A DNA stretch of 64,000 nt. It comes from a bacterium (GTDB lineage: Bacteria > Campylobacterota > Campylobacteria > Campylobacterales > Arcobacteraceae). The notes under the pieces were generated by a model. That model saw only the letters and a list, made by a program, of their open reading frames with translations. It was not told the DNA's origin and made no database searches. The position numbers were made by a program, and so were the translations under genes. The stretch covers positions 19,581 through 83,580 of the forward strand of contig JAHIWE010000047.1 of assembly GCA_018816105.1 (NCBI GenBank), given 5' to 3'. Positions 4,701 through 50,586 of the stretch are shown here, piece by piece; the stretch's first letter is position 1, and the number at the start of each line of letters is the position of its first letter.

Positions 4701-5855
4701 TTATTTTCTATCTTCTAATGGAATGAATTTTAAACCTTCAGGTCCTGTGTAAGTAGCTGATGGTCTAATGATTTTACCATCTTCTCTTTGCTCAATTACG
4801 TGTGCACCCCATCCAGTAACTCTTGAGATAATGAAAATTGGAGTAAACATATCTGTTGGAATTCCCATTTGGTTATAAGAAACTGCTGAGAACCAGTCAA
4901 GGTTAGGGAACATTTTCTTTTGTTCCCACATGATTGTTTCAATTCTTTCAGCAACGTCATACATTAACATGTCATTGTTTTCTTTTGATAAATCTTCAGC
5001 AACTTTTTTAATTACTACGTTTCTTGGGTCACAAATAGTATAAACTGGGTGTCCAAATCCGATAATAATCTCTTTTTTAGCCATTCTTTCTTTGATATCA
5101 GCTTCTGCTTCATCAGCTGAAGAATATCTTTCTTGAATTCTAAATGCAACTTCATTAGCTCCACCGTGTTTAGGACCTCTTAAAGCTCCAATTGAACCTG
5201 TAATACATGAGAACATATCTGAATTTGTACCAGCAATTACTCTTGAAGTAAATGTTGAAGCATTAAATTCATGCTCTGCGTAAAGAATTAAAGATACATG
5301 CATAGCTTTAACCCAAGATTCTCTTGGTTTTTCACCATGTAATAAATGTAAGAAATGTCCACCAACAGTATCATCATCAGTTACAACATCAATTCTTTTT
5401 CCATTGTATGCATAGTGGTACCAGTATAATAAAATTGAAGAGAATGATCCCATTAATCTGTCAATAATATCTTGAGCTTCATTTTTTGGATGCTCTTCTT
5501 TTTCTTGATTTAAAGCCCCAAGTACTGAACAACCAGTTCTCATAACATCCATTGGATGACAAGTTTTTGGTAATTGCTCAAGTGCTACTTTTACACCTTG
5601 TGGAATATCTCTGTAAGATTTAAGCTTTGCTTTATAAGCTGCTAATTCTGCTTTGTTTGGTAATTTTTCATGTACAATTAAATATGCAATTTCTTCAAAT
5701 TCTGCTTTATCAGCAAATTCTAAAATATCATATCCTCTATAATGTAAGTCATTTCCACTTTTCCCAACTGAACAAAGAGCTGTATTTCCAGCAGAAGTTC
5801 CAGAAAGTGCAACAGATTTTTTTGGTTTAAACGCTGTAGTTGTTTCAGTACTCAT
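4701..5855 (-). CDS. prpC: PrpC, 2-methylcitrate synthase
   Basis: A 384-residue citrate-synthase-superfamily protein of the short bacterial PrpC type. It condenses propionyl-CoA with oxaloacetate to give 2-methylcitrate. Citrate synthase landmarks are visible: HEFNAS (about 195), GPKHGGAN with His230, GFGHPVY with His269, and an Asp in [15 protein letters not shown] near residue 320. A separate, longer citrate synthase (gltA) is encoded in the nuo operon in this window, so the two roles are divided. The 49-bp gap to prpB suggests one transcript. A ribosome site (AAGGG) precedes the ATG. Confidence 0.93.
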
Positions 5856-6963: not shown

Positions 6964-7944
6964 ATGAATTATAAAAATTCAATAGAAAAATTTATAGAGA
7001 TTTTTAAAAGATCAAATTTAAGTATATCAAAATTTGCTTCACTTATAAATAAGGATAGACGTACGGTTACATCGTGGATTGATAATATTACAGATATAGA
7101 ACCAAATAAAGATATAAAAGATAAAATTTGCCAAACTTTTAGATATCCTGATTATATTTGGGAGGAAGGTTGTAATGGAGAAGAGTTCTTAAAATCAATT
7201 ACACAAATACCCCAAAAAGAAGTAAGAATTATTGATGAAGACTATCATGGAAGATTAAGATACATAATGGAGCAAGAGCAAAATAGAAGATTTGTTATTC
7301 AAGCTCAATTCCCTGGACCCATGTATAGAGACTCTGCTGTACAAAAAGTGTACAAAACATCAACTAGTAATAATGATATAGAAGAGTTAAAACAAAGTAG
7401 AATTGATCAAATGCTAAGATATGATTATGATACAACGGAATGGTATTCAATAAAATCTGTACTATCTTTTTGTTTTGCAAGTATTGGAAACTTTTATACA
7501 AAAGAAGAAAAATTAAAAATTTTAGAATTAATATATGAACTTTTTAACAATAATTATAATAAAAAACTTTTTTTATTCGATTCTTTTTCAAGAAAAATAT
7601 ATGGAATGGAAACTACATATATTTCAATAAATGTGAAACAAAAAGTATTATTCTTTAAATCACCAATAGAATCTGTATTTATTGAAATAAGAAATAAATC
7701 ATTAGTTGAAAGAATGCATAAGTACTATTCTTCACCAATTGAAGCACCATCACATGTGAATTTTTTAGAATCTGTAAAAATCATTAAAATTTTACAAGAT
7801 GCATTAAAATATAACAATGATATAAAACAAGCATATGAAACAATAAATAGACAAACAAATTACGGTGAACTTTTTCACAATAATCTAAGTTATGATTTAC
7901 AAAAAGAAGTAAGTGCACCAAATCCAGGTCAAAGAAGAAATTAA
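6964..7944 (+). CDS. HTH protein, probable regulator of the prp operon
   Basis: A 326-residue protein with a helix-turn-helix-like segment near the N-terminus (about residues 17-45: LSISKFASLINKDRRTVTSW). The rest of the protein I do not recognise. It is not PrpR of the sigma-54 activator type, not a GntR-type PrpR, and not the ScfR/DUF2083 type. The middle and C-terminal part is lysine- and tyrosine-rich and may hold a ligand-sensing domain. It is divergent from prpB across 174 bp containing repeated dyads, which argues for local control of propionate genes. The ATG follows TAAGGTG. lysE begins one base after its stop, so the two may be co-transcribed. Confidence 0.6.
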   Translation: MNYKNSIEKFIEIFKRSNLSISKFASLINKDRRTVTSWIDNITDIEPNKDIKDKICQTFRYPDYIWEEGCNGEEFLKSITQIPQKEVRIIDEDYHGRLRYIMEQEQNRRFVIQAQFPGPMYRDSAVQKVYKTSTSNNDIEELKQSRIDQMLRYDYDTTEWYSIKSVLSFCFASIGNFYTKEEKLKILELIYELFNNNYNKKLFLFDSFSRKIYGMETTYISINVKQKVLFFKSPIESVFIEIRNKSLVERMHKYYSSPIEAPSHVNFLESVKIIKILQDALKYNNDIKQAYETINRQTNYGELFHNNLSYDLQKEVSAPNPGQRRN

Positions 7945-8617: not shown

Positions 8618-8740
8618 TTATTTCCCAAGAAAAAAGTTTATAAGTTTTCGAAAAAAAGAGAGTTTCTTTTTTTCGACTTTTGTTTTTATTTCATTACTTA
8701 ATGCTTCTAACTTTTTAGGCTCATAAAGTGATTTACTCAT
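8618..8740 (-). CDS. Small 40-residue basic protein, third gene of the stator-like operon
   Basis: This ORF is too short for the track. It reads MSKSLYEPKK... and ends ...FFRKLINFFLGK. Its ATG overlaps the last codons of the MotB-like gene (GATGAGTAA), and AGGTGGGAAAG upstream could serve as the ribosome site, implying translational coupling. The first half is charged and helix-prone; the C-terminal 15 residues (KLSFFRKLINFFLGK) would form a basic amphipathic helix suited to membrane contact. I know no homologue. Coupled position and sensible composition favour a real gene over chance. Confidence 0.5.
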   Translation of the reverse strand: MSKSLYEPKKLEALSNEIKTKVEKKKLSFFRKLINFFLGK

Positions 8741-9809
8741 CTTTCCCACCTAAAAAGTTTTGAAGCTCTTTTACTGCTTCTTCATTTTTAATAGCAAATT
8801 TAATCTCAATTCTTCTAGATGCATCTTTATCTTCAACACCATTTTTATCTAAAATTAAATCAGATGATGATCTTCCACTTGAGTTTACATAAGCACTTAA
8901 AAGATTTTTGTCAATAATATTTGAGTCATATAAAAACTGCATCACTGCTAATGCTCTTTGTTGAGATAAGGCTAAGTTACTTAAATATGAACCATCACTA
9001 TTTGTATGACCTTCAATTGTGATACTCTCAATGAATTTTCTCATCTCTTTATCACCAACTAAAGTGTTTAAATATTTTTTTAGAACTACACTTAACTCTT
9101 TTTTCGATTCTTCTTTTAACTTATATTCATTTTGGTCAAATAAGATATTTGAAGAGAATTTTATAGCTCCACTTTTTTCATCTATATTTATAGACTTCCC
9201 AAGTTTTTCTCTTAGTTTTGCAATAACATTTAATTTAATACCTGTTAAGTTTTTGATTTTAACTTTTGTAATATCAAACTCTTCAACCATTTTTTGATGA
9301 ATTTGTGTTTGAACTAAAAGTTTATCAGCTAATAAGGCTAACTCTTCATCTTTTAAACTAATGATATTTTGTCTATTTAAAATCTCAGCAGATAGCTTTT
9401 CATTAGTATCATTTTGTTCTTTTGTTTTTAAATCAAACTCTAATAATAAAGCTTTTAATTTTTCAATTTCTGCTAAATTTAAACTAATACTTTTTGCTTT
9501 TTCATCAAGTGAAACATTTGCAGAATCAAGTTTTGTTTTTGTTTCTTCATAAATATTTCTAGCTTGAGCTAATTCATAAAATAGTTGAGCTTTTTCATCT
9601 TGAATTTTCTTTAAAGCACTATTTTTATTTAAAATCTCTTCTTGACTTAAATTTAATGCAAGTTTCTCTTTGTCTAGATTATTTTGAGTATAAAGATATT
9701 TTATTACAATAGCTCCAATTACTAAAATAAATACAAAAAGAAGTCCTGCCATTAAGTCAGCGTATGAAATCCAAAAATTCTCTTCATTTTTTTGTTCGTT
9801 GTTATACAT
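8733..9809 (-). CDS. MotB/OmpA-like stator protein (ZorB-like in outline)
   Basis: 358 residues: a short cytosolic N-terminus, one membrane helix (about 20-40) preceded by WISYADLM whose Asp18 matches the proton-binding Asp of MotB/ExbD/ZorB proteins, a long periplasmic coiled coil (about 45-190), and a C-terminal OmpA-type peptidoglycan-binding domain (about 210-345, with IEGHTNSDG and ASRRIEIKF). With the MotA/TolQ-like protein encoded 6 bp upstream it should form a proton-driven stator anchored to peptidoglycan. It is not next to flagellar genes. The WxSYADLM start and long stalk resemble ZorB and related non-flagellar stators, but no ZorC, ZorD or ZorE is present. Confidence 0.8.
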   Translation of the reverse strand: MYNNEQKNEENFWISYADLMAGLLFVFILVIGAIVIKYLYTQNNLDKEKLALNLSQEEILNKNSALKKIQDEKAQLFYELAQARNIYEETKTKLDSANVSLDEKAKSISLNLAEIEKLKALLLEFDLKTKEQNDTNEKLSAEILNRQNIISLKDEELALLADKLLVQTQIHQKMVEEFDITKVKIKNLTGIKLNVIAKLREKLGKSINIDEKSGAIKFSSNILFDQNEYKLKEESKKELSVVLKKYLNTLVGDKEMRKFIESITIEGHTNSDGSYLSNLALSQQRALAVMQFLYDSNIIDKNLLSAYVNSSGRSSSDLILDKNGVEDKDASRRIEIKFAIKNEEAVKELQNFLGGKDE

Positions 9810-9815
9810 TATTTA

Positions 9816-11036
9816 CTACTTTGATAAATTTTTGAATTCAGTTAAATCTTCTATAATTTTCGTAGTTTGATTATCAATTGATTCTAAAGAGTGATTTAAT
9901 TTATCTGTAATTTTAACATCATAATCATCAAGCTCTTTTTTGAATTTCCACTCAATTTTTTCCATATCACTTTTCATAGTTTCTATGCTTTTTACGATAT
10001 TTGTATAAATAGCTTTTAGATTATCTGAACTTAAATTATGTAAATGTGAATTTAATATTGAAACATTGTTATTTAAAAGTTCAGTATTTAAAGCATATAA
10101 ATCTTTTTGTTTTTCAAAACTTTTAATTGTTGTATTCATATTTAAAGTAACATCTCTTAACATTATGGATAAACTTTCATTATTATCAATATTTTCACTA
10201 ATTTTTGTAGAAAGCAATAACTCCTTTTTTAGAATATCTTCAAGTAATTCAACTCTTTTTTCTATTAAAGTATTTATGTTATCCATCATATTACTAGATG
10301 TAAGTTTTTCAAATACCTCACTCATTTTTGCATAGTTATCAAGATTACTTTTTATATGAATTGATTCAATATCAACTTTTGTCCAGAAAAATGATTTAGT
10401 ATTTTCTTTGATGATATAAGTATCATGTTCGAATCTACTCATTCCGATTTTTTCAAAAAAAGTCCACCAAATTGATAAAAAGATACCAAAAATAGAAACA
10501 TAAAAGGCAGTTCCCACTCCACCTAAAAGTACTGTAATTTCTTTTTCTAAAGCATTTGAAGTTCCAGAAGAAAAATCAGGCATAGAAAACGCAATAGATA
10601 TAAAAGTTCCTAAAATACCAAGTGTTGGAAAAATTCCAGAGGCAATTGAAGAGAAGTTTGTATTTCTAATATTACTTGTATAATCTTTTAAGAAATCATT
10701 AGCACTTCCATTTGCTTTTGTAATATCTCCAATTGTTAATAAATTATCATTAATATAATTTTTTAAATAGAAAAATAGTTCTTGATATTGTGTTTTAAAT
10801 TTGCATGAAACATAATATGCATTATGTCTTATGAAAAATAGATAAATTAAATAGATAAATCCTATTAAAACCACACTGTGAATTTCAACTCTTAATGGAA
10901 AATATCCTAAATAACATAATATGATTATTCCAAATAACATACTAGGTACTGTCAATAAAGTAAATATTCTTGACATTGGTTTACACGTGGTATAAAATCT
11001 TGAATTTAAATCAATAAAATCGTCATCTGTTAACAT
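9816..11036 (-). CDS. MotA/TolQ/ExbB-like proton channel protein (ZorA-like in outline)
   Basis: 406 residues with two hydrophobic segments near the N-terminus (about 25-75), then the MotA/TolQ/ExbB core with the typical PTLGILGTFISIAF helix (about 140-155) and a second core helix (about 170-195, GGVGTAFYVSIFG). A long C-terminal cytoplasmic region (about 220-406) is predicted largely helical or coiled coil. The track starts at 11042, but AAGGA directly abuts that ATG. The ATG at 11036 (MLTDDD) has proper spacing. It precedes the MotB-like gene by 6 bp. The long cytosolic tail is a feature of ZorA-like rather than flagellar MotA proteins. Confidence 0.8.
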   Translation of the reverse strand: MLTDDDFIDLNSRFYTTCKPMSRIFTLLTVPSMLFGIIILCYLGYFPLRVEIHSVVLIGFIYLIYLFFIRHNAYYVSCKFKTQYQELFFYLKNYINDNLLTIGDITKANGSANDFLKDYTSNIRNTNFSSIASGIFPTLGILGTFISIAFSMPDFSSGTSNALEKEITVLLGGVGTAFYVSIFGIFLSIWWTFFEKIGMSRFEHDTYIIKENTKSFFWTKVDIESIHIKSNLDNYAKMSEVFEKLTSSNMMDNINTLIEKRVELLEDILKKELLLSTKISENIDNNESLSIMLRDVTLNMNTTIKSFEKQKDLYALNTELLNNNVSILNSHLHNLSSDNLKAIYTNIVKSIETMKSDMEKIEWKFKKELDDYDVKITDKLNHSLESIDNQTTKIIEDLTEFKNLSK

Positions 11037-11200
11037 AAACATTCCTTATAATGTTAGGTAATTTTAATTGGAAGTTTAGCATATTTATCATCTTAAGATA
11101 TAAAATTTTGAATATTATTTAAAATATAACAAAAGATTTTACCAGCTTAAAGAATTAAAAGATAAAATAACGAAATATTATGGAGAAAATGAAATAAATT

Positions 11201-12490
11201 ATGATAAAAAAACTTTTAACTTTGTTGTTGGTATGTAGTAGTTCAGTTGTTTATGCTTGGGCAGATAAGTATACAATTTCAGTTTGTATGACTTTGAGTT
11301 TGGAAAATGCACTTATTTGTAAAAAAAGTATATTTGATAATATGGATGGGAAGGTTTTTATTGTAAAAGATAAAGATGGAAGATATTATACATATCTTAA
11401 CGTATATGAAAATAAAAATGAAGCTAAACTTACTATAAATAAAGCATCGACTTATGTTAAAAAACAAAAGCCTTATGTAAAAGCTATAGATGAAAATATA
11501 ATCTCTCTTTATTCTAAAAAAGAAACATTTATAGATTTAACAGCAGTTCCAAAAGAAAATAGAGTACAAAAAGTTTATATAGTAAAAAATGAAATCAAAG
11601 ATAATCAAGAAAAAATTGATAATAAAGTAGAAGAGAAAAAAGAAGAAAAATTAGAAGAAGTTAAAGAAACAAAAAAAAATGATAAAAAAGAAGAGTATAA
11701 GTTGGTATCTCTAAGTCCAAAAATTGAAGATTTAAAACTTGTATCTTCTTATCCTTTTTATGAAGGTCAAAAATTAGGCGATGATGATAGCTATCAAAAT
11801 ATAAATAATACAAAAGAAGAAGAGTTAAAAAAGATTGATGATTTGATACAAGTAAGTATGGAAGAATTTGATAAAGCTGATGATAAAAAACAAGAAGAAA
11901 TAAAAGTTGAAAATAAAATTGTCCAAATTGAGGATAAAAAACAAGAAGAGCCAAAAATTCAAAATAAGATAGTTGAAGTCGTAATCAATAAAAGTGAAGA
12001 AGAAGCAAATATTTTAAACTATGAAGAGTTAATAATCCAAGTTGATGCAAATACAAATCTAATGACAGTTAATGCAAAAATAAATAATGAATTAAAAGAG
12101 ATAAAACAGTATGTTGTCTCAACTGCAAAAAAAGATGTAAAAAGACCATTTGGAGAAGGAAAGATTTCTAAAATATCTTTAAACCCTATTTGGTATCCAA
12201 CCCAAGATACTTTGAAAACTTTTAGAAAAAGAGGAATAAATCTTCCATCAGTTGTTCCTCCTGGACATAAATACAACTATATGGGAGCTGCAAAAATAAA
12301 CTTAACACATATTGTTGATGGTAAAAATACATTTAGAATCCATGGTACATTAAGTGAAAAAACAATAGGGACAAATGAATCAGCAGGTTGTATTAGAATG
12401 AGAAATAGTGATGTTCTTCAATTGGCATCTTTATTAAATGATTTCTCACAATTAAAAAGTTTAAATGAGGTTAAGGTTATTTTGAAGTAA
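11201..12490 (+). CDS. Secreted L,D-transpeptidase (YkuD domain)
   Basis: 429 residues: a signal peptide (about 1-19, ending VVYA), an N-terminal globular segment of about 80 residues with a SPOR-like feel (not firm), a charged low-complexity linker rich in K and E (about 125-270), and a C-terminal YkuD catalytic domain (about 275-429). The active site HGT...SAGCIRMRN with Cys397 is complete. The enzyme forms or edits 3-3 peptidoglycan cross-links or attaches proteins to peptidoglycan. The linker contains a 17-residue tandem repeat. It is divergent from the peptidoglycan-anchored stator pair and 24 bp ahead of a TetR gene. Confidence 0.85.
   Translation: MIKKLLTLLLVCSSSVVYAWADKYTISVCMTLSLENALICKKSIFDNMDGKVFIVKDKDGRYYTYLNVYENKNEAKLTINKASTYVKKQKPYVKAIDENIISLYSKKETFIDLTAVPKENRVQKVYIVKNEIKDNQEKIDNKVEEKKEEKLEEVKETKKNDKKEEYKLVSLSPKIEDLKLVSSYPFYEGQKLGDDDSYQNINNTKEEELKKIDDLIQVSMEEFDKADDKKQEEIKVENKIVQIEDKKQEEPKIQNKIVEVVINKSEEEANILNYEELIIQVDANTNLMTVNAKINNELKEIKQYVVSTAKKDVKRPFGEGKISKISLNPIWYPTQDTLKTFRKRGINLPSVVPPGHKYNYMGAAKINLTHIVDGKNTFRIHGTLSEKTIGTNESAGCIRMRNSDVLQLASLLNDFSQLKSLNEVKVILK
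11882..11983 (+). repeat. 51-bp tandem duplication in the L,D-transpeptidase linker
   Basis: Two 51-bp units begin with the identical GATAAAAAACAAGAAGA at 11882 and 11933. They encode DKKQEEIKVENKIVQIE and DKKQEEPKIQNKIVEVV. The units have diverged outside the first 17 bases. The repeat lies in the flexible linker, so copy number could change without loss of function. Confidence 0.7.
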
Positions 12491-30376: not shown

Positions 30377-32389
30377 TTAGATCTCCTCTTTTATCTTCTC
30401 TAAATCTTTTATTTTCTCTAAATATTGCTCTTTTTTCAATGTTACAAAATTCATTCTATCTTCGTTTATTTCTAAGTATTGTTCTTTTGAGTATTTTACG
30501 ATTTTAAATAAATAATTTCTTTTTGATGTTAAGAAATCTTCGATTTTTTCAAACCCAAAATTTGCTTTTAATTTTGCAACAATTTCATCTTCTCTTGGAT
30601 GAGAAATAGAGAATCTTGATGGTTCTTTTTTATATAGCTCTTCTGATTCTAAAATTTGTTGTTCAAAGTGCGCAATAGTTGCTTGTGTAGTTTGGATATA
30701 GCTATATGATAAAGCTCCATTAAAATATGCGAATTTTTTTCTAAGAGCTGATATGTTTTCTAAAATAGCTGTGTTATAACTATTTAAAACATTTTCATAA
30801 ACTTTTGCTGCAAAGTGTCTTGTACTTGAGAACTCTAAATCAGATGCAATTTCTCTATGTTTTCTAATAAGTTCATATGGTTCTTGCCATTTATTTACTT
30901 CATTTTTTATATGTTTATATACATCTCTAAATGATTCATCTGTGTTAAGTTCTATATTTTTAAGAAGCTTGATTGATCTTTTAAACATTTTATCAATAGT
31001 TTGATCATCGTAAAATAAACCTTTGTATACTGCGTCTGAGTCTATCCAGAATGTTTCATATTCAAATTTCTCAATTTTACCACCTAAAAATCCTTTTGAT
31101 TCTTCAAATCTAAAAGCAGATCTCTTTTTAATATTTTTAAATGTCTCGTGGGCAATTTTTTCCATGATTGTTTCTAAAGAATTATAGATATTAAATAGCT
31201 CTTTTGAGTATCTTTTATGAATATTTTCAAACAATTCTAATACATTTTTTTCACTAGCTTTTAAAATCTCAATTAATCCATCATAGATTTTTGTAATTGT
31301 TTCATACTCTTTGATTAAAATATCACAAATACCTTTTAAATCTTTTTTAATAGCAAATTCTTTTGATTCGGCTGCTTGTGGTCGAATAGTATTATTTATA
31401 AATTCTAAAACCTCTTGAATATTTGATTCTTTTAATAATTTATCATTATTTGATGTATCTATGTTATTAATTTCATCTAAATCTCTATAGTAGTCATCAA
31501 GATTTTTTGCAATTGATGCGATATTACCACTTAGTGAATTTCTAATACTTTCCATAAGTTTGTCTTGTTTGTCTTGAATTAAAACATCAACTTGATGTGC
31601 TCTTGATTCAAGTGCCATTTTTGCAGAAATAGGAGTTACTTGAGCAAAATACTTTCCAAATTTTTCACTTACATATTTTGTAGTTGTTTCAACTTGGTCT
31701 GGTGTTAATTTATCTTTTTGATTTAATACACATAAAGATTTATTTTTAAAGTGTTGCATATACTCTTCTAAAACTTCAGCCTCAGAAAGTTTTCCTGCAT
31801 TATCAATAAGTGTTAACCAAATAATTCCACCCACATCTCTTAGAACTTTTCTTGTAGTATCCGTATCGCTTTGAGATTGAGAGTTTAATCCTGGAGTATC
31901 CACAAATGAGATATCTTTTAAAATATCCATTGGAGCATAAAGTGTAAGATATTTTATATCTTTCATTTCATGTTCTCTTTGATCTGTAAAATCTGCAATT
32001 GATTCAATTGGCGCGTACTCTTGTGCACCTGAGTAATAAGTGATTTTTAGTTTATACTCTTCACCATAGTTAATAAAATTAACTTTAGAAGTAACTGGAG
32101 TAATTCCTGTTGGTAAGATATTTCTAGCAAGTAATGCATTTAGAAAGGTTGATTTTCCAGATGAAAATTGCCCTGTAATTGCAACTTCCATAGGATATCT
32201 TGCACGCCTGATTTGTTTATTTAAAATACCGACAAGTTGATTTGATGGACAGAATTTTTCATCAAGTAATTTAGCTTGAATTTTTTTGATATCTCCTACT
32301 AAACCTTCTTCATAAACAACTTCTTGAATATTATAAGTATCTTTATACTCAGTAACAAAACTTTTTAGGATATTGAAATTTGCACTCAT
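30377..32389 (-). CDS. Bacterial dynamin-like GTPase, second of the pair (DLP2-like)
   Basis: 670 residues. An N-terminal GTPase domain has P-loop GQFSSGKSTFLNALL (about 72-86), switch II DTPGLNSQSQSD (about 164-175) and NQKDKL (about 225-230), then a long helical stalk (about 300-670). It overlaps the upstream GTPase gene by one base (TAATGA), so the two are coupled. Position and architecture match the C. jejuni Cj0411/Cj0412 pair, whose products form a hetero-oligomer that tethers membranes. Expected to act at the inner membrane face in membrane remodelling or maintenance. Confidence 0.88.
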   Translation of the reverse strand: MSANFNILKSFVTEYKDTYNIQEVVYEEGLVGDIKKIQAKLLDEKFCPSNQLVGILNKQIRRARYPMEVAITGQFSSGKSTFLNALLARNILPTGITPVTSKVNFINYGEEYKLKITYYSGAQEYAPIESIADFTDQREHEMKDIKYLTLYAPMDILKDISFVDTPGLNSQSQSDTDTTRKVLRDVGGIIWLTLIDNAGKLSEAEVLEEYMQHFKNKSLCVLNQKDKLTPDQVETTTKYVSEKFGKYFAQVTPISAKMALESRAHQVDVLIQDKQDKLMESIRNSLSGNIASIAKNLDDYYRDLDEINNIDTSNNDKLLKESNIQEVLEFINNTIRPQAAESKEFAIKKDLKGICDILIKEYETITKIYDGLIEILKASEKNVLELFENIHKRYSKELFNIYNSLETIMEKIAHETFKNIKKRSAFRFEESKGFLGGKIEKFEYETFWIDSDAVYKGLFYDDQTIDKMFKRSIKLLKNIELNTDESFRDVYKHIKNEVNKWQEPYELIRKHREIASDLEFSSTRHFAAKVYENVLNSYNTAILENISALRKKFAYFNGALSYSYIQTTQATIAHFEQQILESEELYKKEPSRFSISHPREDEIVAKLKANFGFEKIEDFLTSKRNYLFKIVKYSKEQYLEINEDRMNFVTLKKEQYLEKIKDLEKIKEEI

Positions 32390-34743
32390 TAGTTTAATCC
32401 TTTTATCGTTTTAGCAACATTTTCTAGTTTTTTGATATTTTTATGAATATCAATAGATAATTGAGCTTTATTTTTATCATTTTCTTCAAATGAATTTATC
32501 TGCTTTTGAAGCATCTCTTCATCATTTTTTAGTTTTTGTTCAAATGTTTTTAATGGTGCATTTAGCGTTGAAAAGAAAGATTCAATTAATAAACTACTTA
32601 CTTTTTTTGCTTTTGCTTTAATATCTGCTTCAATTGATGTGAATTGATTTTTTATAAGTAGTTCAATTTCCCTATCTAGTTCATTCATTTTACTTTCTTT
32701 AGATTTTGAAACTACATCTATAACTTGTAATATTAAAACTTCATTATTTGAAGTTAAAAATCCTGATTTAAAGTCATCTTGGAAGAATCCTCTTGCATCA
32801 AAGTTCTCATTTTTATGGCCTATTGTAAATCCCATATCATGATATTTTTGCTCACATTGTTCACCAATTGTTTGTGATTTTTTAATAAACTTATATCTAT
32901 AATCTCTAATAACATCAATAATTCCATCTTTGATAGCGGTTTCAACGATAACCTTGATTCTTGAGTTTTCGGGTCTTTTTTTAGTTTTCTCAAAAGAGTA
33001 TCTAACATCACTTACAACTCTTTGTTTAATAACAGTTTGAAGCTCTAGTAATTCGCTTTGTACAAATGTTTCAAGAGAAGTAATATACTCTTTAGCATCA
33101 TTTTTATAATAGTTTATATCTTCATTCATTGCTTGAAAGATTCTAGTATTTACAACTTTTTTCTTATTAAACTCTTCAAGTTCTTTTTCTAACTCATCTT
33201 TTGATTTTGATAGTAGTATTAACTCATAGTTGTAAAAAGAGTTTTGTTTTTCTATAATTTTTTGTAATTGATTTTTTGAAGATTGAATTACAAGTTCACC
33301 TTTTTGAGAGTTTGAACCAAACAGTGTTTCATTTAAATATTTTTCAATTTCTAAAATACCTGTATCTTCAATACTATATCCAGCATCTATAGCTTCTTGC
33401 TCTCTTCCTGTTCTATGTAATAGTGCCATTTTCCCAGAAATTGGAATAAACTTAATTGTTTTTAAAATATAATCAAGTTGAGAATCTTTATTTTGTGCTT
33501 TTAATTGTCGCTCAATTGATGATTTAGTGTATTTAATAACTTCATCTAATTGTTCTTTTGAAACTGTATCAGCACGTGTTATAACAATTAAAAGTTTTGA
33601 AATATTTTGGTAGAGTAGGGCATCAATTATAAACTCAACATCTTTAAGTGTTGCACTTTGAGATACATTCATTAAGTGTAACATCATATCACAAGCAGAG
33701 ATATACTCTTTTGTAATCTCTTCTCTTTGAATAACAGGGTCATCAAGCCCTGGAGTATCTACTATTTCAATACCATCAGATAAAAAGTCAAGTTTAGAAC
33801 CTAATTCCACATATTTTACTAAGTTACATTTTTTACCACTTGCTTCTGCTGATGTATAAGATGATAAGTCATTTATATCAACTTGGTCAAATCGTGAAAC
33901 AGGTTTAATATAATTTTTTAATTCATCACCAAAGATTCTATTTGTTTCATTTACAAAATCTCTCATTGATTCTAATTGTTCAGCTGATTTTAAAATTCTA
34001 TCCCACTCTTGTTGATTCCAATAAAAAACTTTCGCATTATCAGTTGGATTATGTTTTACAATTGTTAAGTTAGCAGTTTCAGGAACAACAGCACTTCCTA
34101 GAATTTCTCTTCCCATTAAGGCATTTAACATAGTAGACTTACCAGCATTCATAACACCTGTAATTCCAATAGAGAATTTTTGATTATTTAAGTAAGTGCT
34201 TGTGTTGTTTAACTCATCTAAAATTTCTTGATTATTTAAATCATTTTTTAGTTCAGCAATTAATTGCTCAACTGTAGTTTTTAGCTCTTTAAATGAAGAT
34301 TTGTTTGTATCTTCATCTTTAATTTCATCAGAAATTTTAGTTTCAACTTCAACCAAATCAAGCTCTTTATAATCAAATAAAGAGATTAATTTTGTGTAGT
34401 TTTCACTATTTAAAATACTTTCATCTTTTAAATACTCAAAAGATGAGTGTAGAACTGAAATATTTTGTTTTGATCTGTTTGATAAAATAGCTTCAACAAT
34501 GTTATGTTGTAAGTGATTTAATTCATTATTATTAGAAGGACTTTTTACATTTATTTGTTGACATAGAGTTTTAAATGACGTTAATGCCAAATATTTGTCA
34601 TAGTTTTTTCTTGTAGCACTAATAATTAAAGCAAAGATAGTAAATATCTCTTCGTTAATTTTAGTTTCAATTGGCTCTACATCTAAATTCTGCTCGAAAG
34701 TTATACCGTGATACAGTAAAAAATAATCATTTGCTAAACTCAT
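32389..34743 (-). CDS. Bacterial dynamin-like GTPase, first of the pair (DLP1-like)
   Basis: 784 residues. An N-terminal helical extension of about 190 residues precedes the GTPase domain with P-loop GVMNAGKSTMLNALMG (about 204-219), DTPGLDDPVIQ (about 326-336) and TRADTVSKE. A long helical trunk and coiled coil follow to the C-terminus. The track starts at 34779; ATG 34743 (MSLANDYF) has TAGGAG at good spacing and is chosen. It lies downstream of frdB but behind two terminator hairpins, so it may have its own promoter or rely on read-through. Pairs with the DLP2-like protein. Confidence 0.88.
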   Translation of the reverse strand: MSLANDYFLLYHGITFEQNLDVEPIETKINEEIFTIFALIISATRKNYDKYLALTSFKTLCQQINVKSPSNNNELNHLQHNIVEAILSNRSKQNISVLHSSFEYLKDESILNSENYTKLISLFDYKELDLVEVETKISDEIKDEDTNKSSFKELKTTVEQLIAELKNDLNNQEILDELNNTSTYLNNQKFSIGITGVMNAGKSTMLNALMGREILGSAVVPETANLTIVKHNPTDNAKVFYWNQQEWDRILKSAEQLESMRDFVNETNRIFGDELKNYIKPVSRFDQVDINDLSSYTSAEASGKKCNLVKYVELGSKLDFLSDGIEIVDTPGLDDPVIQREEITKEYISACDMMLHLMNVSQSATLKDVEFIIDALLYQNISKLLIVITRADTVSKEQLDEVIKYTKSSIERQLKAQNKDSQLDYILKTIKFIPISGKMALLHRTGREQEAIDAGYSIEDTGILEIEKYLNETLFGSNSQKGELVIQSSKNQLQKIIEKQNSFYNYELILLSKSKDELEKELEEFNKKKVVNTRIFQAMNEDINYYKNDAKEYITSLETFVQSELLELQTVIKQRVVSDVRYSFEKTKKRPENSRIKVIVETAIKDGIIDVIRDYRYKFIKKSQTIGEQCEQKYHDMGFTIGHKNENFDARGFFQDDFKSGFLTSNNEVLILQVIDVVSKSKESKMNELDREIELLIKNQFTSIEADIKAKAKKVSSLLIESFFSTLNAPLKTFEQKLKNDEEMLQKQINSFEENDKNKAQLSIDIHKNIKKLENVAKTIKGLN

Positions 34744-34762
34744 TTTAAATCTCCTAAAATGT

Positions 34763-34798
34763 AAAAAGTTAAATATCACTAATGATACTTAACTTTTT
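34763..34798 (-). terminator. Second hairpin between frdB and the dynamin-like genes
   Basis: AAAAAGTTAA-x-TATCA and TGATA-x-TTAACTTTTT pair across a CTAA loop with one mismatch. On the minus strand the stem ends in a T-run. It is the second of two tandem terminator-like hairpins after frdB. Confidence 0.7.
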
Positions 34799-44793: not shown

Positions 44794-46077
44794 TTAATTA
44801 TTCCCCACTACTATAACAACTGCTGTTACTACGATATTTAAAAGAGCTAATGGAATAAGCACTTTCCACCCTAACATTTGTAATTGGTCATATCTGAATC
44901 TTAAAACCGTCCATCTAATCCAGATAAATACAAATGCCATCATAAAGAATTTAATTAAAAAAGTTCCAACTTGAATAACAGCTGTTGCTATATTAATTCC
45001 GTTTGTTCCAAGACCTGTTAGTAAAAATAAAATTAAAACAGCCATAATAAACAAACTTAAACCCCAAAATGCAAAAGTTAAAATTTTTGTCTCTTTTTCT
45101 CTTGATTTATTATTTCCAATCGCTCTATTATTCTTTTTCATCCATTTTGTAAGAATATATGCTTTTATTGGAAGAATAATAATTATTGCCATGATTACAT
45201 AGTTAATATTACTTTGAATTGCGTGTGTATCTAACCAAGGAACTTGATAACCACCAAAAAATAGTGTAACAATAATAGCACTTGATGCACTCATAGCAGC
45301 ATACTCACCAACTTGGAAAAGTCCAAATCTCATAGCAGAATATTCAGTATGATAACCAGCAACTAATTCAGATTCACCTTCTGCTAAGTCAAATGGAGCT
45401 CTATTTGTTTCCGCAAATGCACAAACAATAAATATGATTGCAGCTAGAGGTTGAATAAATATTCCCCACATAGGAATTACACCTAAGTAAGTTCCAGCTT
45501 GTGCATTTACCATATCTGTTAAGTGAATAGAACCATAAGATAAAATCATAGAGATAATTGCTAATCCCATTGCAGCTTCATATGAGATTACTTGAGCTGA
45601 TGCTCTAATTGATCCAAGAAGTCCATATTTACTCCCTGATGAATAACCACCTAAGATTATTCCATAAACACTAAGTCCTGCAAATGCTATAAACCACATG
45701 ATTCCCAGTTCATTTGGAAGAGCTTGCATAATACTTTCTTTTCCATCTATTATTAAAACATCAGAAAAAGGAATAACTCCAAAAGTTAAAAATGAACAGA
45801 AAAATACGATTGCAGGTGCAATTGTAAAGAAAAATTTATATCTAATATGTGAAGGAGTAAAATCTTCTTTAAATACAAGTTTTAGCATATCTGCAAAACT
45901 TTGTATTAATCCTCCAAGTCTCATAGGACCTATATTACATCTATTTGGTCCAGATCTATCTTGCATAAATCCAGATACTCTTCTCTCCCACCAAACAAAT
46001 ACAGGCACGACACCAACAGCTAATATTATAGCAAGGATGATATTTATGATTATTATAATAATAGATGCAATAGTCAT
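44794..46077 (-). CDS. nuoH: NuoH, complex I membrane subunit, extended form
   Basis: 427 residues against about 325 in E. coli. The core is normal: WWERRVSGFMQDRSGPNR (about 29-46), the quinone-channel loop RASAQVISYEAAMGLAII and AFAETNRAPFDLAEGESELVAGYHTEYS (about 221-248). Extra residues lie between the helix ending FFGGYQVPWLD (about 285) and the final ...KFFMMAFVFIWIRWTVLRFR block. They contain two more hydrophobic segments around a basic loop (KWMKKNNRAIGNNKSREKE). Overlaps nuoG by 4 bp. Confidence 0.93.
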   Translation of the reverse strand: MTIASIIIIIINIILAIILAVGVVPVFVWWERRVSGFMQDRSGPNRCNIGPMRLGGLIQSFADMLKLVFKEDFTPSHIRYKFFFTIAPAIVFFCSFLTFGVIPFSDVLIIDGKESIMQALPNELGIMWFIAFAGLSVYGIILGGYSSGSKYGLLGSIRASAQVISYEAAMGLAIISMILSYGSIHLTDMVNAQAGTYLGVIPMWGIFIQPLAAIIFIVCAFAETNRAPFDLAEGESELVAGYHTEYSAMRFGLFQVGEYAAMSASSAIIVTLFFGGYQVPWLDTHAIQSNINYVIMAIIIILPIKAYILTKWMKKNNRAIGNNKSREKETKILTFAFWGLSLFIMAVLILFLLTGLGTNGINIATAVIQVGTFLIKFFMMAFVFIWIRWTVLRFRYDQLQMLGWKVLIPLALLNIVVTAVVIVVGNN

Positions 46078-47510
46078 AGAGTTCCTTTTTCAATCATTGA
46101 TTTAAGATGTTCTATTACAGTTGTTATAGTTTCCATTTTATTGTCTTTATTCATTTTAGATATAACTTTTTGCTTAATTCCACTAGTATTTATGTATGTT
46201 CCTGATTTTTCATAAAAAGAAGATACGGGAATAGCAATATTTGAATATCCAATAGTCATACAGTGGTGAGAAAATAAAGAGATTACTTTTTTATTTTCAA
46301 GAAGATTACTGTTATTTTCGAAATAACTATTTTCAACAACAACTACTAAAGATGCTTTATTTAATTTCTCATCAAAAAATTCTTTTGTTTCGTTTATTTC
46401 TAACTCTTTAAAAGCTGCTCTATTTACAGTTCTATCAGATGTTTTTAAATAATCATCAGCAAAGTTTTCATCAAAAGTATCAGGTGAATATCCTGATACA
46501 TCAACATTTAATTTTGATGCTAAATTTTTAACATTTTGCATCTCTTCAATTGAAAGATTTGCACTTAATACAAATAAGATATTTTTATTAGTTGATAACT
46601 CTTTGAACATATTTGTAATAGTATTATCAACATTAGTTTCATTTTTATCAACAAATGGTGTTTCAAATCTATTTGTGCTTTCTTTTGTATAAGAAAGTCT
46701 TCCTTCATCACAAATAAAGTGACCATTTACACTTTTGTTTACCCTTGGTCTAAATCTAAAAATTTGGTCATCTTTATATTTTTCTTTTCTATGATCAACA
46801 TAAATATTACAACCCTTTGAACAACCATTACAAATTGCATCAAATGATTCTAAGAACCAAACTCTTTGTTTAAATCTGAAGTCTTTATTTGTTAATGCCC
46901 CAACAGGACAAATATCAATAACATTCATAGCATAAGGATTATCAAGTGGCTTTCCAGGGAAAGTTCCAATAACTGAATGATCAGCTCTACTGATTACTCC
47001 TAGCTCATTTGTTTTTGTAATTTGTGAACAAAATCTTACACATCTAGTACAAAGTACACATCTTTCTTGGTCAAGCATTACATTAGAGCCTAAATCAACT
47101 CTTTTTCTTGCATGATTTTTTGTATTAACATTTACTCTAGAATCATAAAAACCTGATTCCATATAATAATCTTGAAGTTTACACTCTCCTGCTTGGTCAC
47201 AAGTAGGGCAGTCTATAGGATGATTTACAAGTTGAAGTTCAAGAATATCTCGTCTTACTTTTTCAATATTTTCACCTTGAGTTCTTACAATCATCCCATC
47301 TTTTACAGGTGTGTCACAAGCAATCTGAGGTCTTTTTTGACCTTCAATTTCAACCATACACATTCTACAGTTTCCATCTTTACCAAGGGCTTGATGATAA
47401 CAAAAATGAGGAATATGGATATTTTCATCCAATAATTTGTCAATTAGCAAGCTACCTTTAGCAGCTTGCATTTGTGCTCCATTGATTGTAATATTTACAA
47501 TTTCACTCAT
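46074..47510 (-). CDS. nuoG: NuoG, complex I Fe-S subunit, short form
   Basis: 478 residues, much shorter than the usual 700-900. All N-terminal cluster motifs are present: the [2Fe-2S] site (CYHQALGKDGNCRMC...CDTP, about 37-65), HPIDCPTCDQAGEC (about 97-110), CVLCTRCVRFC...CPVG (about 152-205) and a CNGCSKGC...C set (about 225-265) fitting N7. The molybdopterin-like domain is cut to about 200 residues, retaining a FYEKSGTYINTSGIKQ segment like the normal C-terminus. It carries electrons from NuoF to NuoI. A 4-bp overlap with nuoH. It follows gltA after 34 bp. Confidence 0.92.
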   Translation of the reverse strand: MSEIVNITINGAQMQAAKGSLLIDKLLDENIHIPHFCYHQALGKDGNCRMCMVEIEGQKRPQIACDTPVKDGMIVRTQGENIEKVRRDILELQLVNHPIDCPTCDQAGECKLQDYYMESGFYDSRVNVNTKNHARKRVDLGSNVMLDQERCVLCTRCVRFCSQITKTNELGVISRADHSVIGTFPGKPLDNPYAMNVIDICPVGALTNKDFRFKQRVWFLESFDAICNGCSKGCNIYVDHRKEKYKDDQIFRFRPRVNKSVNGHFICDEGRLSYTKESTNRFETPFVDKNETNVDNTITNMFKELSTNKNILFVLSANLSIEEMQNVKNLASKLNVDVSGYSPDTFDENFADDYLKTSDRTVNRAAFKELEINETKEFFDEKLNKASLVVVVENSYFENNSNLLENKKVISLFSHHCMTIGYSNIAIPVSSFYEKSGTYINTSGIKQKVISKMNKDNKMETITTVIEHLKSMIEKGTL

Positions 47511-47544
47511 ATATTATCCCCTTACCCTTAAGTTTTGATTTTTC

Positions 47545-48831
47545 TTAGTTACCTGTATATAATTGTCTTGGTCTTGCAATTTTATGTTTTGGATCTTGTT
47601 TTAATTCAGACCATTGAGCTAACCATCCTGGAGTTCTACCAATAACAAAGATTGGAGTAAACATTGCAGTTGGAATTCTAAGAGCTGTTAAGATAACACC
47701 TGAATAGAAGTCAATGTTTGGATATAAACCTCTTTCAATAAAGTATTCATCACTTAATGCAGCTTTTTCAACAGCAGCAGCAATATCAAGTAATTTAGAA
47801 TCAAGTTTTAACTCTTCTCTTAATTTATCTTGTAATCCTTTTAAAGTTTCAGCTCTTGGATCTCTATTTTTATAAACTCTATGTCCGAATCCCATTAATC
47901 TGAAGGGGTCATTTCTATCTTTTGCTTTAGCAATATAAGTTGGTACATTTTTAACATCACCAATTAATCTTAATTGATCCATTACTTTTTCATTTGCACC
48001 ACCATGAGCAGATCCCCATAATGCAGAAATTCCAGAAGCAATAGCAACATAAGGGTGAGCTTCAGTTGAACCTACGTTTCTTACAGTTGTAGTAGATGCA
48101 TTTTGTTCATGATCAGCATGTAAAGTTAAAATTGCATCAAGTGCATCAATTTCAACTTGTTTAATTTCATCATTAACACCATCACCTAAATATCTCATTT
48201 TACCACCTGGATAAGCTCTTAACATATACAAGAAGTTTTCAGTGAAGTATTTATTTACATCTGGATAAATTAGTGGAGTACCAATTGAATTTCTATAAGC
48301 CATCGCTGCAATAACAGGCATTTTAGCTAAAATTCTTCTTCTCATAATTTTGAATTGTTCTTCATCTTCTAAATGTAGGTGATCTTTATAAAATGCAGAT
48401 AAAGCCATTGTTGCAGCTCCCATTGTTGCCATTGGGTGAGCACCATCTGGTAATGCATCAAATAATCTAATGATACCTTCATTTAAGAATGATCTATGTC
48501 TAATTTCTAAATCAAAGTTTTTAGAAGCTTGTTCAGTTGGAAGTTTCCCTCTCATTAATAAATAAGAAACATCTAAGAAAGAGTGTTTACCAGCAAGATC
48601 AGCAATATCATATCCTCTGTATCTTAACTCTGAATTTTCACCATCAATAAAAGTGATTTTTGATTCACAAGATGCAGTTGAAGTATAACCTGGGTCATAT
48701 GTAAACATTCCTGAATCTTTGTAAAATGTAGAAATATCTACAACGCTTGGTCCTCTTGTACCATCAATAATATTATATTCATATTGTTTACCACTTCTAT
48801 TATCTGTTAATGTCATTGTATTTTTAGCCAT
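47545..48831 (-). CDS. gltA: GltA, type II citrate synthase, inside the nuo operon
   Basis: 428 residues, the length and N-terminal extension of hexameric Gram-negative citrate synthases. Active-site blocks are present: HADHEQNASTTTVR (about 248-261), SAHGGANEKV with its catalytic His (about 286), FGHRVYKNRDPRA (about 325-337) and NIDFYSGV with the catalytic Asp (about 380). It condenses acetyl-CoA and oxaloacetate. The track starts at 48888; ATG 48831 (MAKNTMTL) follows CAGGAG with good spacing and is preferred. It is flanked by nuoF (28 bp) and nuoG (34 bp) on the same strand. Confidence 0.94.
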   Translation of the reverse strand: MAKNTMTLTDNRSGKQYEYNIIDGTRGPSVVDISTFYKDSGMFTYDPGYTSTASCESKITFIDGENSELRYRGYDIADLAGKHSFLDVSYLLMRGKLPTEQASKNFDLEIRHRSFLNEGIIRLFDALPDGAHPMATMGAATMALSAFYKDHLHLEDEEQFKIMRRRILAKMPVIAAMAYRNSIGTPLIYPDVNKYFTENFLYMLRAYPGGKMRYLGDGVNDEIKQVEIDALDAILTLHADHEQNASTTTVRNVGSTEAHPYVAIASGISALWGSAHGGANEKVMDQLRLIGDVKNVPTYIAKAKDRNDPFRLMGFGHRVYKNRDPRAETLKGLQDKLREELKLDSKLLDIAAAVEKAALSDEYFIERGLYPNIDFYSGVILTALRIPTAMFTPIFVIGRTPGWLAQWSELKQDPKHKIARPRQLYTGN

Positions 48832-48859
48832 AAGTTTCTCCTGTTTATTAAGTTTAGTT

Positions 48860-50110
48860 TTAGTTTTTAAAATATGTTTTGAATTCATGTGGGAATTTTT
48901 TTACAATACTTTCGATAATATCTTTTACCGCTGGTGCAAATACGCAAATTGTTTTACCATTCATTGTACTACACACATCAAGTATTGTATTTAAATCTTC
49001 ACTTGAACCATCTCCACATAAGATTTTTTCCAAAATCTTATCAATCCAGCCTGTTCCTTCCCTACAAGGTGTACACTGACCGCATGATTCATGGTGATAA
49101 AATTCAATCAAATTCTTAGCTACATCAACCATAGATGTATCTTCATCAATAACTATCATTCCTCCTGTACCTAAAGTTGAACCAATATCCCACATAGATT
49201 CATAATCCAAAACAGCTTGTTCTACTTCTTGGGCTGTTAGAATTGGACATGATGAACCTCCTGGAATAATTGCTTTTAATTTTTTCCCTTCAATCATTCC
49301 CCCACCTAGAATGTTTAGAAAATCAATCATTTTATTTCCATATGCCATTTCATAAACACCTGGATTTTTCACAGGTCCTGAAATTGCAAATAGCATTGTT
49401 CCAGGCGATTTAGCAGTTCCATATTTTGTGTAGCCAGCAGCGCCGTTTTCTACAATATTTGGAACTGATGCAATTGTTTCAACATTATTTACAGTTGCTG
49501 GATTATCAAAGAACCATTCACACTCTTTACCGTGTGGTTTAAGCCTTGGATGTCCACGTTTTCCTTCTAATGATTCAATTAGTGCTGATTTTTCCCCACA
49601 AATATAAGCACCACCACCTCTATGAACTGTTATATCTAATTTAAAATCATATTTATTCATGATTTTATCACCAATAATGCCAGCTTGGTAGGCTTCTTTT
49701 ATCGCTTCATTTAATCTATCTGAGAAAAACTTATATTCACCTCTTATATAAATATATGCATGATGGGCATTTATTGCATAACAAGTGCAAATAATTCCCT
49801 CTATTAAAAGATGTGGGTCATATTCAAAAATTTGTCTATCTTTAAAAGTTCCAGGTTCTGATTCATCACCATTTACTATTAAATATGCAGGTCTTGGATC
49901 ATTCTTAGGCATTAATTCCCATTTAGGACCACAAGCTGCTCCCCCACCACCTTTCCCTCTTAGCCCTGATGCTGTAACTTCTGCTGTTACATCATCTGGC
50001 GCCATTGAAAAAAGTTTGTCTATAGAAGAGTATCTTCCGTTTGCAAGGGCAACTTCAAGTTTATGAGAATTTGGAATATCAAAATTTTTACTTACTATTT
50101 TTGTTATCAT
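48860..50110 (-). CDS. nuoF: NuoF, complex I NADH-binding flavoprotein subunit
   Basis: 416 residues. The FMN/NADH region GLRGKGGGGAACGPKW (about 51-66), NGDESEPGTFKDR (about 83-95) and RGGGAYICGEKSALIESLEG are followed by ESCGQCTPCREG (about 342-353) for cluster N3. It oxidises NADH and passes electrons to NuoG. This and NuoE show a true NADH-input module, unlike Campylobacter/Helicobacter complex I. The track starts at a GTG (50119) that directly abuts AAGGAG; ATG 50110, overlapping the nuoE stop as ATGA, has proper spacing. Confidence 0.95.
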   Translation of the reverse strand: MITKIVSKNFDIPNSHKLEVALANGRYSSIDKLFSMAPDDVTAEVTASGLRGKGGGGAACGPKWELMPKNDPRPAYLIVNGDESEPGTFKDRQIFEYDPHLLIEGIICTCYAINAHHAYIYIRGEYKFFSDRLNEAIKEAYQAGIIGDKIMNKYDFKLDITVHRGGGAYICGEKSALIESLEGKRGHPRLKPHGKECEWFFDNPATVNNVETIASVPNIVENGAAGYTKYGTAKSPGTMLFAISGPVKNPGVYEMAYGNKMIDFLNILGGGMIEGKKLKAIIPGGSSCPILTAQEVEQAVLDYESMWDIGSTLGTGGMIVIDEDTSMVDVAKNLIEFYHHESCGQCTPCREGTGWIDKILEKILCGDGSSEDLNTILDVCSTMNGKTICVFAPAVKDIIESIVKKFPHEFKTYFKN

Positions 50111-50586
50111 TTTTTGCACTCCTTAATCAACTCATCAACTTTTTGTGTAGTTAATTTTTCATGGTAAACACCATCTAATGCAAACATTGGAGCACCACCA
50201 CAAGCACCAAGACACTCAACTTCACTTAGGTGAAATAATCCATCTTCACTTGTTTGTCCTGGTTCTATTCCAATACTTTCTTTGATGTACTTCTTAATAT
50301 CTCTTGAACCACATAACATACATGAAAGAGTTTTACATAACTCAATATGATGTTTTCCAATTGGTTTTAAATTAAACATAGTATAAAAAGTTGCTACTTC
50401 ATATACTTGAATTGGAGTTTTTCCTAATTTATCTGCCACATAAACCATAGCTTCAGGACTAACCCAAGCTTCTTGCTCTTGAACTAACCAAAGCGCTGGT
50501 AACATAACAGAATCAATAAGAGGATACCTGCTTACGTATTCTTGAAATTTTACTTCATTTTCAGGTGTAAATTTAAAACTGCTCAT
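50107..50586 (-). CDS. nuoE: NuoE, complex I [2Fe-2S] subunit
   Basis: 159 residues with the thioredoxin-like [2Fe-2S] fold. The ligand pattern is CKTLSC (C-x4-C, about 84-89) and CLGACGGAP (C-x3-C, about 125-133). Binds NuoF in the NADH-oxidising tip. One-base overlap with nuoCD upstream and a 4-bp overlap with nuoF downstream. Confidence 0.94.
   Translation of the reverse strand: MSSFKFTPENEVKFQEYVSRYPLIDSVMLPALWLVQEQEAWVSPEAMVYVADKLGKTPIQVYEVATFYTMFNLKPIGKHHIELCKTLSCMLCGSRDIKKYIKESIGIEPGQTSEDGLFHLSEVECLGACGGAPMFALDGVYHEKLTTQKVDELIKECKK

Follow-up and report, generated by a model that had tools for sequence, protein, structure and literature searches.

A ZorAB-like stator pair conserved in Campylobacterales and an overlapping small third gene: a proposed housekeeping motor

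A compact minus-strand operon of three genes, here called A, B and C, lies in the 64,000-nucleotide stretch of Aliarcobacter DNA that was analysed (the window). We propose that A and B probably form a housekeeping, peptidoglycan-anchored ion motor of the 5:2 type, near to the ZorA-ZorB (ZorAB) motor of Zorya, with C as its dedicated small subunit. The motor class of A-B is well supported, and we infer a role for C in the motor. New here are the C family and the recognition of the pair as a Campylobacterales core feature without assigned function. The operon and its divergent neighbour are arranged as follows.

9816..11036, minus strand: gene A, MotA/ZorA-like membrane protein, 406 aa, or 408 aa if translated from the ATG upstream (11042)
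8733..9809, minus strand: gene B, MotB/ZorB-like protein, 358 aa, with a TM helix, a stalk and an OmpA domain
8618..8740, minus strand: gene C, basic protein of 40 aa, with its ATG at 8740
11201..12490, plus strand: divergent YkuD L,D-transpeptidase (Pfam YkuD, 1.6e-13), context only

The initial annotation had described a three-gene operon away from flagellar and Tol genes, with a 40-codon ORF overlapping the end of B and an L,D-transpeptidase as divergent neighbour, and each element of this layout was borne out. All three ORFs are found at the positions listed. The first ATG of A is at 11042, but in the alignment the start of most orthologues falls on the third codon (11036), the position given in the initial annotation. 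A and B are separated by 6 nt, and the stop of B overlaps the start of C by 8 nt, as ATGAGTAA. The other flank of the operon is a convergent gene for a LysE-type exporter. None of the ten neighbouring genes belongs to a PADLOC defence family, and no flagellar genes were found near the pair. The genome encodes five other MotA/TolQ/ExbB proteins, including those of flagellar MotAB and TolQR, all on other contigs. This survey and the tree described below reject A-B as a flagellar or Tol duplicate. A further small ion-channel-type pair of the same genome consists of a short TolQ-like protein (152 aa) and a 102-aa partner (L138 1327-2083, G000:C117).

The window also holds several genes unrelated to the pair. 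A 326-aa protein (6964-7944) with no Pfam, NCBIfam or PADLOC match adjoins a methylcitrate-type gene cluster. A citrate synthase gene (47545-48888) is embedded in the nuo operon (46074-50119), with a nuoF-like gene on one side and a nuoG-like gene on the other, and a second gene of the citrate synthase family is at 4701-5855. Two adjacent, overlapping genes at 30377-34779 encode dynamin-like GTPases of 670 and 796 aa.

Protein A matches Pfam MotA_ExbB (8.4e-6) and PADLOC ZorA1 (3.9e-13), and at least 55% of the columns in the orthologue alignment are conserved. Its AlphaFold model, made with 39 sequences (pLDDT 79.6, pTM 0.53), contains four membrane-type helices, including those at residues 128-153 and 162-218. 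Residues 101-110 form a beta hairpin, and the tail, residues 222-407, is helical. Thr178, the predicted ion-path residue, is over 90% conserved. A was thus correctly read at the outset as a MotA/TolQ-like protein with a long cytosolic tail.

10443..10661, minus strand: A residues 128-200, TM3-TM4 core with the FPTLGILGTF and GVGTAFYVSI motifs (invariant alignment columns; AF2 helices)
9822..10379, minus strand: A residues 222-407, long helical tail in the cytoplasm, free of Pro and Gly (AF2 secondary structure; composition and periodicity)

Protein B, with the N-terminal sequence NFWISYADLMAGLLFVFIL, matches PADLOC ZorB1 (1.6e-58) and Pfam OmpA (2.1e-12, residues 223-319). Asp18 is invariant across 21 aligned B proteins. 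Residues 39-188 contain no Pro or Gly in 150 residues, and their hydrophobic periodicity is near 3.5 residues, a value equalled by 2.4% of shuffles. These features agree with the earlier description of a MotB-like protein with a coiled-coil stalk and an OmpA domain. The hallmarks of a 5:2 motor are both present: the Asp in the TM helix of B is conserved, and so is Ser/Thr in the TM helices of A.

9756..9758, minus strand: B Asp18, predicted ion-carrying aspartate in FWISYADLMAGLLFVFIL (invariant in the alignment; motif common to ZorB)
9246..9695, minus strand: B residues 39-188, predicted helical coiled-coil stalk (composition and periodicity)
8796..9143, minus strand: B residues 223-338, OmpA-type peptidoglycan-binding domain (Pfam OmpA)

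The closest relatives of the pair are ZorA and ZorB. By profile, the nearest solved structures to A are ZorA (1.3e-9 and weaker) and those nearest to B are ZorB (2.4e-25, 3.9e-18 and 2.4e-16), with MotB and OmpA proteins trailing at about 1e-6 to 2e-8. A Foldseek search of the PDB with the A model gave ZorA chains as all six best matches (3e-6 to 5e-5), followed by TolQ at 0.05; whole-chain TM-scores against ZorA are low because of A's tail. According to a survey of the stator superfamily (PMC12505986), additional beta structure in the cytoplasmic domain is characteristic of Zorya. In a tree built from the TM core of A, all rows from Campylobacterales group in a single clade (89) beside Zorya type I, and MotA, TolQ and ExbB lie behind a branch (97) that sets them apart from the Zor-like rows. 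This tree was built from no more than about 110 columns with a small outside reference set, and several of its branches are long; the branching order among Zor proteins is therefore left aside, and what can safely be read from the tree is that A belongs on the Zor side and not the Mot side. A B tree made alongside it was not used for this placement because its long branches meet. The likeness to ZorA-ZorB noted initially thus extends to sequence for both proteins, and to tree and fold for A, which falls outside flagellar MotA and TolQ/ExbB.

A separate OmpA-domain protein of the same genome was noted during these searches. It is a probable lipoprotein of 431 aa with ankyrin-like repeats (G000:C181:8027-8515; L002 1498-2793, L225), it scores 149.5 bits against the ZorB2 model (56 bits for the window's B), and its gene adjoins dnaJ-like and MerR/HspR-like genes.

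The pair has the composition by which a Zorya motor is recognised, a MotA-like A with a long tail and a B with a TM Asp and an OmpA domain. Nevertheless, it is not Zorya, because the effectors are missing, the scores are far under the cut-offs, and the distribution and selection are housekeeping-like. As the initial annotation had said of ZorC/D/E, PADLOC found none among the neighbouring genes; with the neighbours identified, and in contrast to real Zorya loci, there is no ZorC or ZorD (type I), ZorE (type II) or type III effector beside the pair. The curated NCBIfam cut-offs are missed widely, with 86.7 bits against 400 for ZorB1 and 37 against 250 for ZorA, and none of 31 Aliarcobacter genomes exceeds the ZorB1 cut-off. 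The patchy, island-borne distribution typical of Zorya was not found either. A occurs once in 30 of the 31 Aliarcobacter genomes searched, including that of the window, whose genus was assigned from named loci nearly identical to it, and the A profile matches 127 of 135 Campylobacteraceae and 193 of 397 Campylobacterota genomes, nearly always in single copy. In close pairs, A has a dN/dS of about 0.01-0.11 and B one of about 0.02-0.19, mostly under 0.12, and purifying selection on both genes is strong. A Zorya remnant was rejected, since hundreds of genomes retain the pair intact, as core genes under constraint.

The pair is neither a rare nor a mobile novelty: much of Campylobacterales, Campylobacter included, has it as core genes in single copy, which speaks for housekeeping rather than defence. 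We also weighed whether the motor senses phage-induced envelope damage as ZorAB does, the effector being either C or a gene encoded elsewhere. Zorya motors are indeed the closest relatives, and a small, basic, amphipathic protein like C could harm membranes. We nevertheless regard a defence role as very unlikely, given that ZorC/D/E or other defence genes were not found nearby, that a near-universal single copy with low dN/dS is unlike patchy defence islands, and that gene order is conserved both in Campylobacter and in Aliarcobacter.

In five Campylobacteraceae loci (L125-L129), a peb4-like and an fba-like gene precede the pair. We take this order, peb4-fba-A-B, to be that of Cj0596-Cj0599 in C. 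jejuni, which would make the pair Cj0598-Cj0599 by gene order. PMC5841378 lists Cj0598 under "function unknown", and we found no functional study of Cj0598 or Cj0599 in the open-access literature. In a comparison of Arcobacteraceae, an orthogroup of the MotA/TolQ/ExbB type correlated positively with group 1, which includes A. butzleri and A. cryaerophilus (PMC10336517); this orthogroup may be gene A.

The same motor could have a more specific function, as an envelope-energising machine of the Tol-Pal type. Its long stalk would lift the OmpA domain to the wall near the outer membrane, its strokes would move or load peptidoglycan or outer-membrane contacts in growth or division, and C would only stabilise the complex. 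The stalk of about 150 residues without Pro or Gly is far longer than the ZorB linker, which fits this idea, as do the core distribution and the strong constraint. The L,D-transpeptidase gene, which adjoins the pair in nearly all Aliarcobacter loci, could be taken the same way; it was not seen beside the pair in Poseidonibacter or other C-positive loci and, being conserved mainly within Aliarcobacter, is no constant partner. The absence of any constant envelope neighbour outside Aliarcobacter, the TolQR already encoded elsewhere in the genome and a stalk length that varies widely, down to none in locus L122, make this specific function unlikely in our view. Locus L122 (5644-8174, G428:C8) has Zorya-like proportions inside the core family: a core-type A of 592 aa with a tail of about 378 residues, a B of 251 aa without a stalk, and no C.

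Gene C encodes MSKSLYEPKKLEALSNEIKTKVEKKKLSFFRKLINFFLGK. The initial annotation had suggested searching for this small ORF downstream of homologous pairs, and the ORF proved to be conserved in Arcobacteraceae and well beyond. The initial annotation would have been refuted by the lack of such an ORF or by a place for the pair inside flagellar MotAB, and neither outcome was obtained. All Aliarcobacter- and Poseidonibacter-type pairs have an ORF of 38-52 codons behind B whose start overlaps or abuts the B stop. Strong matches to the C profile occur in exactly the 39 Arcobacteraceae genomes that hold this form of the pair (clade I; 39/39), always behind B, and none was found elsewhere in Arcobacteraceae without the clade I pair. 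The one weak member comes from the draft genome G097, where a stop codon interrupts the matched region. Across 385 sequence pairs, some of which are not independent, C has a median dN/dS of 0.37. Other Arcobacteraceae carry a second form of the pair, set apart by a deep split and lacking C (clade II; L063-L078). The Poseidonibacter genus group (g19) has one form or the other according to species, which suggests replacement or transfer.

A profile made from close relatives only had suggested that C is limited to Aliarcobacter. This was overturned by ORFs of the same layout at the same position behind B in distant Campylobacterales and by an iterated profile (inclusion limit E < 0.01), which takes 102 of 124 small ORFs beside the B stop and 0 of 9,569 other small ORFs in the same loci. 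Selection, the 39/39 co-occurrence and the 102/124 against 0/9,569 reject C as a chance ORF. Because an iterated profile can drift, two position-free checks were made. Searching whole genomes with the wide profile placed C behind B in the positive genomes. The same search of whole Campylobacter, Sulfurospirillum and clade II Arcobacter genomes gave no match, with a 46-position profile that could miss a diverged copy; C encoded elsewhere in the C-negative genomes was thus not found. Among 26 further genomes, some of which may be close kin of the training loci, 15 had a match, and in 12 of these the best match was at the place expected from the coordinates of A. In two others (G425, G196) C is matched and the place of A is not listed, and in one (G273) the best match is elsewhere. 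For the 11 genomes without a match, therefore, either C is missing or its copy is too diverged for the profile.

C thus ranges over Aliarcobacter, Poseidonibacter, Sulfurimonas, Sulfurovum and relatives, and is absent from Campylobacter, most Sulfurospirillum and clade II Arcobacter, which keep A and B. Several lineages keep the pair without it, so the motor does not depend on C everywhere. That whole clades lost C and kept A and B also tells against C as the effector of a defence motor. An unrooted B tree with 121 rows splits deeply into two subfamilies (99), both of which include members with and without C; the presence of C needs eight state changes, compared with 34 when the labels are shuffled, and the C-lacking clades are Campylobacter with Sulfurospirillum (96) and clade II Arcobacter (99). 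An ancestral C with later loss would be the simplest account, and gains would also be possible on an unrooted tree. The lack of the last 45 residues of A in clade II had suggested a docking extension for C on the tail. This idea was dropped because C-negative Sulfurospirillum and Campylobacter retain a similar tail end.

Members of the C family have 40-65 residues, with a median length of 46 and a median net charge of +8; Pro8 is invariant and Leu11 is over 90% conserved in the family alignment. AlphaFold predicts an extended N-terminus and one helix at 9-38 (pLDDT 86.7). Comparison of 51 members with Pfam, NCBIfam, PADLOC and the PDB gave no family and only scattered near-chance matches. By our own coding of the HELIQUEST discriminant, the C-terminal part exceeds 1.34, a lipid-binding score, in 95% of 85 sequences. 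Its amphipathic order is modest (a median of 14% of shuffles are as amphipathic), and much of the score is due to composition. Judging from these predictions, C is most likely a peripheral membrane subunit at the motor base. A short, basic product that several lineages lack while keeping A and B might instead be a separate peptide, toxin-like or a regulatory leader, merely carried on the same transcript. We think this improbable to a high degree, because C has no membrane-spanning segment, is under purifying selection, has its start coupled to the stop of B throughout both deep subfamilies of the pair, and never occurred apart from B in the searched genomes.

For the housekeeping motor with C as subunit, we propose the following mechanism. 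Five A would assemble around two B into a chromosomal, vertically kept, ion-driven motor, which would stand on the same branch as ZorAB and yet form a separate Campylobacterales housekeeping family. The OmpA domain of B would grip peptidoglycan at the end of the long periplasmic helical stalk. Ions passing Asp18 of B and the Thr ring of A could drive A5 around B2, and the motion may be passed to the cytoplasm through A's helical tail. C would be made by translational coupling to B. Its extended N-terminus, with the conserved xPxxL motif, precedes one helix, and its basic, aromatic C-terminal part would suit binding to the inner leaflet. In contact with A or B at the cytoplasmic base, C may assemble or gate the motor, or couple it to a partner.

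If this proposal is right, Campylobacter and its relatives would have among their core genes a motor whose class is otherwise represented by those of flagella, Tol/Ton and phage defence. The pair would offer a housekeeping comparison for Zorya, namely a ZorAB-type motor without nucleases. C would represent a new small-protein family, with the prediction that it is found at the membrane with A/B and alters motor activity. A bolder possibility, which we advance tentatively and hold to be somewhat doubtful, is a hitherto unrecognised three-protein Campylobacterales envelope machine whose motor is on Zorya's stem branch, with an obligate tiny C that was lost where it was replaced. In that case an older cell-envelope motor would have become mobile and been weaponised as Zorya, and C would be a membrane-peripheral subunit unlike any known stator accessory.

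Compared with known systems, the Campylobacter pair (Cj0598-Cj0599) is orthologous by profile (E about 1e-90 to 1e-145) but lacks C, is followed by a deaminase-like gene and has a longer A tail. TolQR and ExbBD have in common with A the TM core of the MotA/TolQ/ExbB type; TolR and ExbD have no OmpA domain, unlike B, and TolQ and ExbB no long cytoplasmic tail, unlike A. Flagellar MotAB shares with B the ion-carrying Asp in a TM helix and the OmpA peptidoglycan-binding domain but is on the other side of the A tree. For MotAB, TolQR and ExbBD alike, the host has its own copies elsewhere in the genome, apart from A-B. ZorA-ZorB (PDB 8QYD, 8VVN, 8VVI; PMC11890865) is the closest known system by profile, tree and fold. 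ZorB and B have in common the FWISYADLM TM motif and the OmpA domain, and ZorA, like A, has a helical cytoplasmic tail and a beta hairpin between membrane helices. The A tail is shorter than that of ZorA (about 150-230 against 420-610 residues), whereas B is longer than ZorB (316-491 aa in most members against 235-246) and has a much longer stalk.
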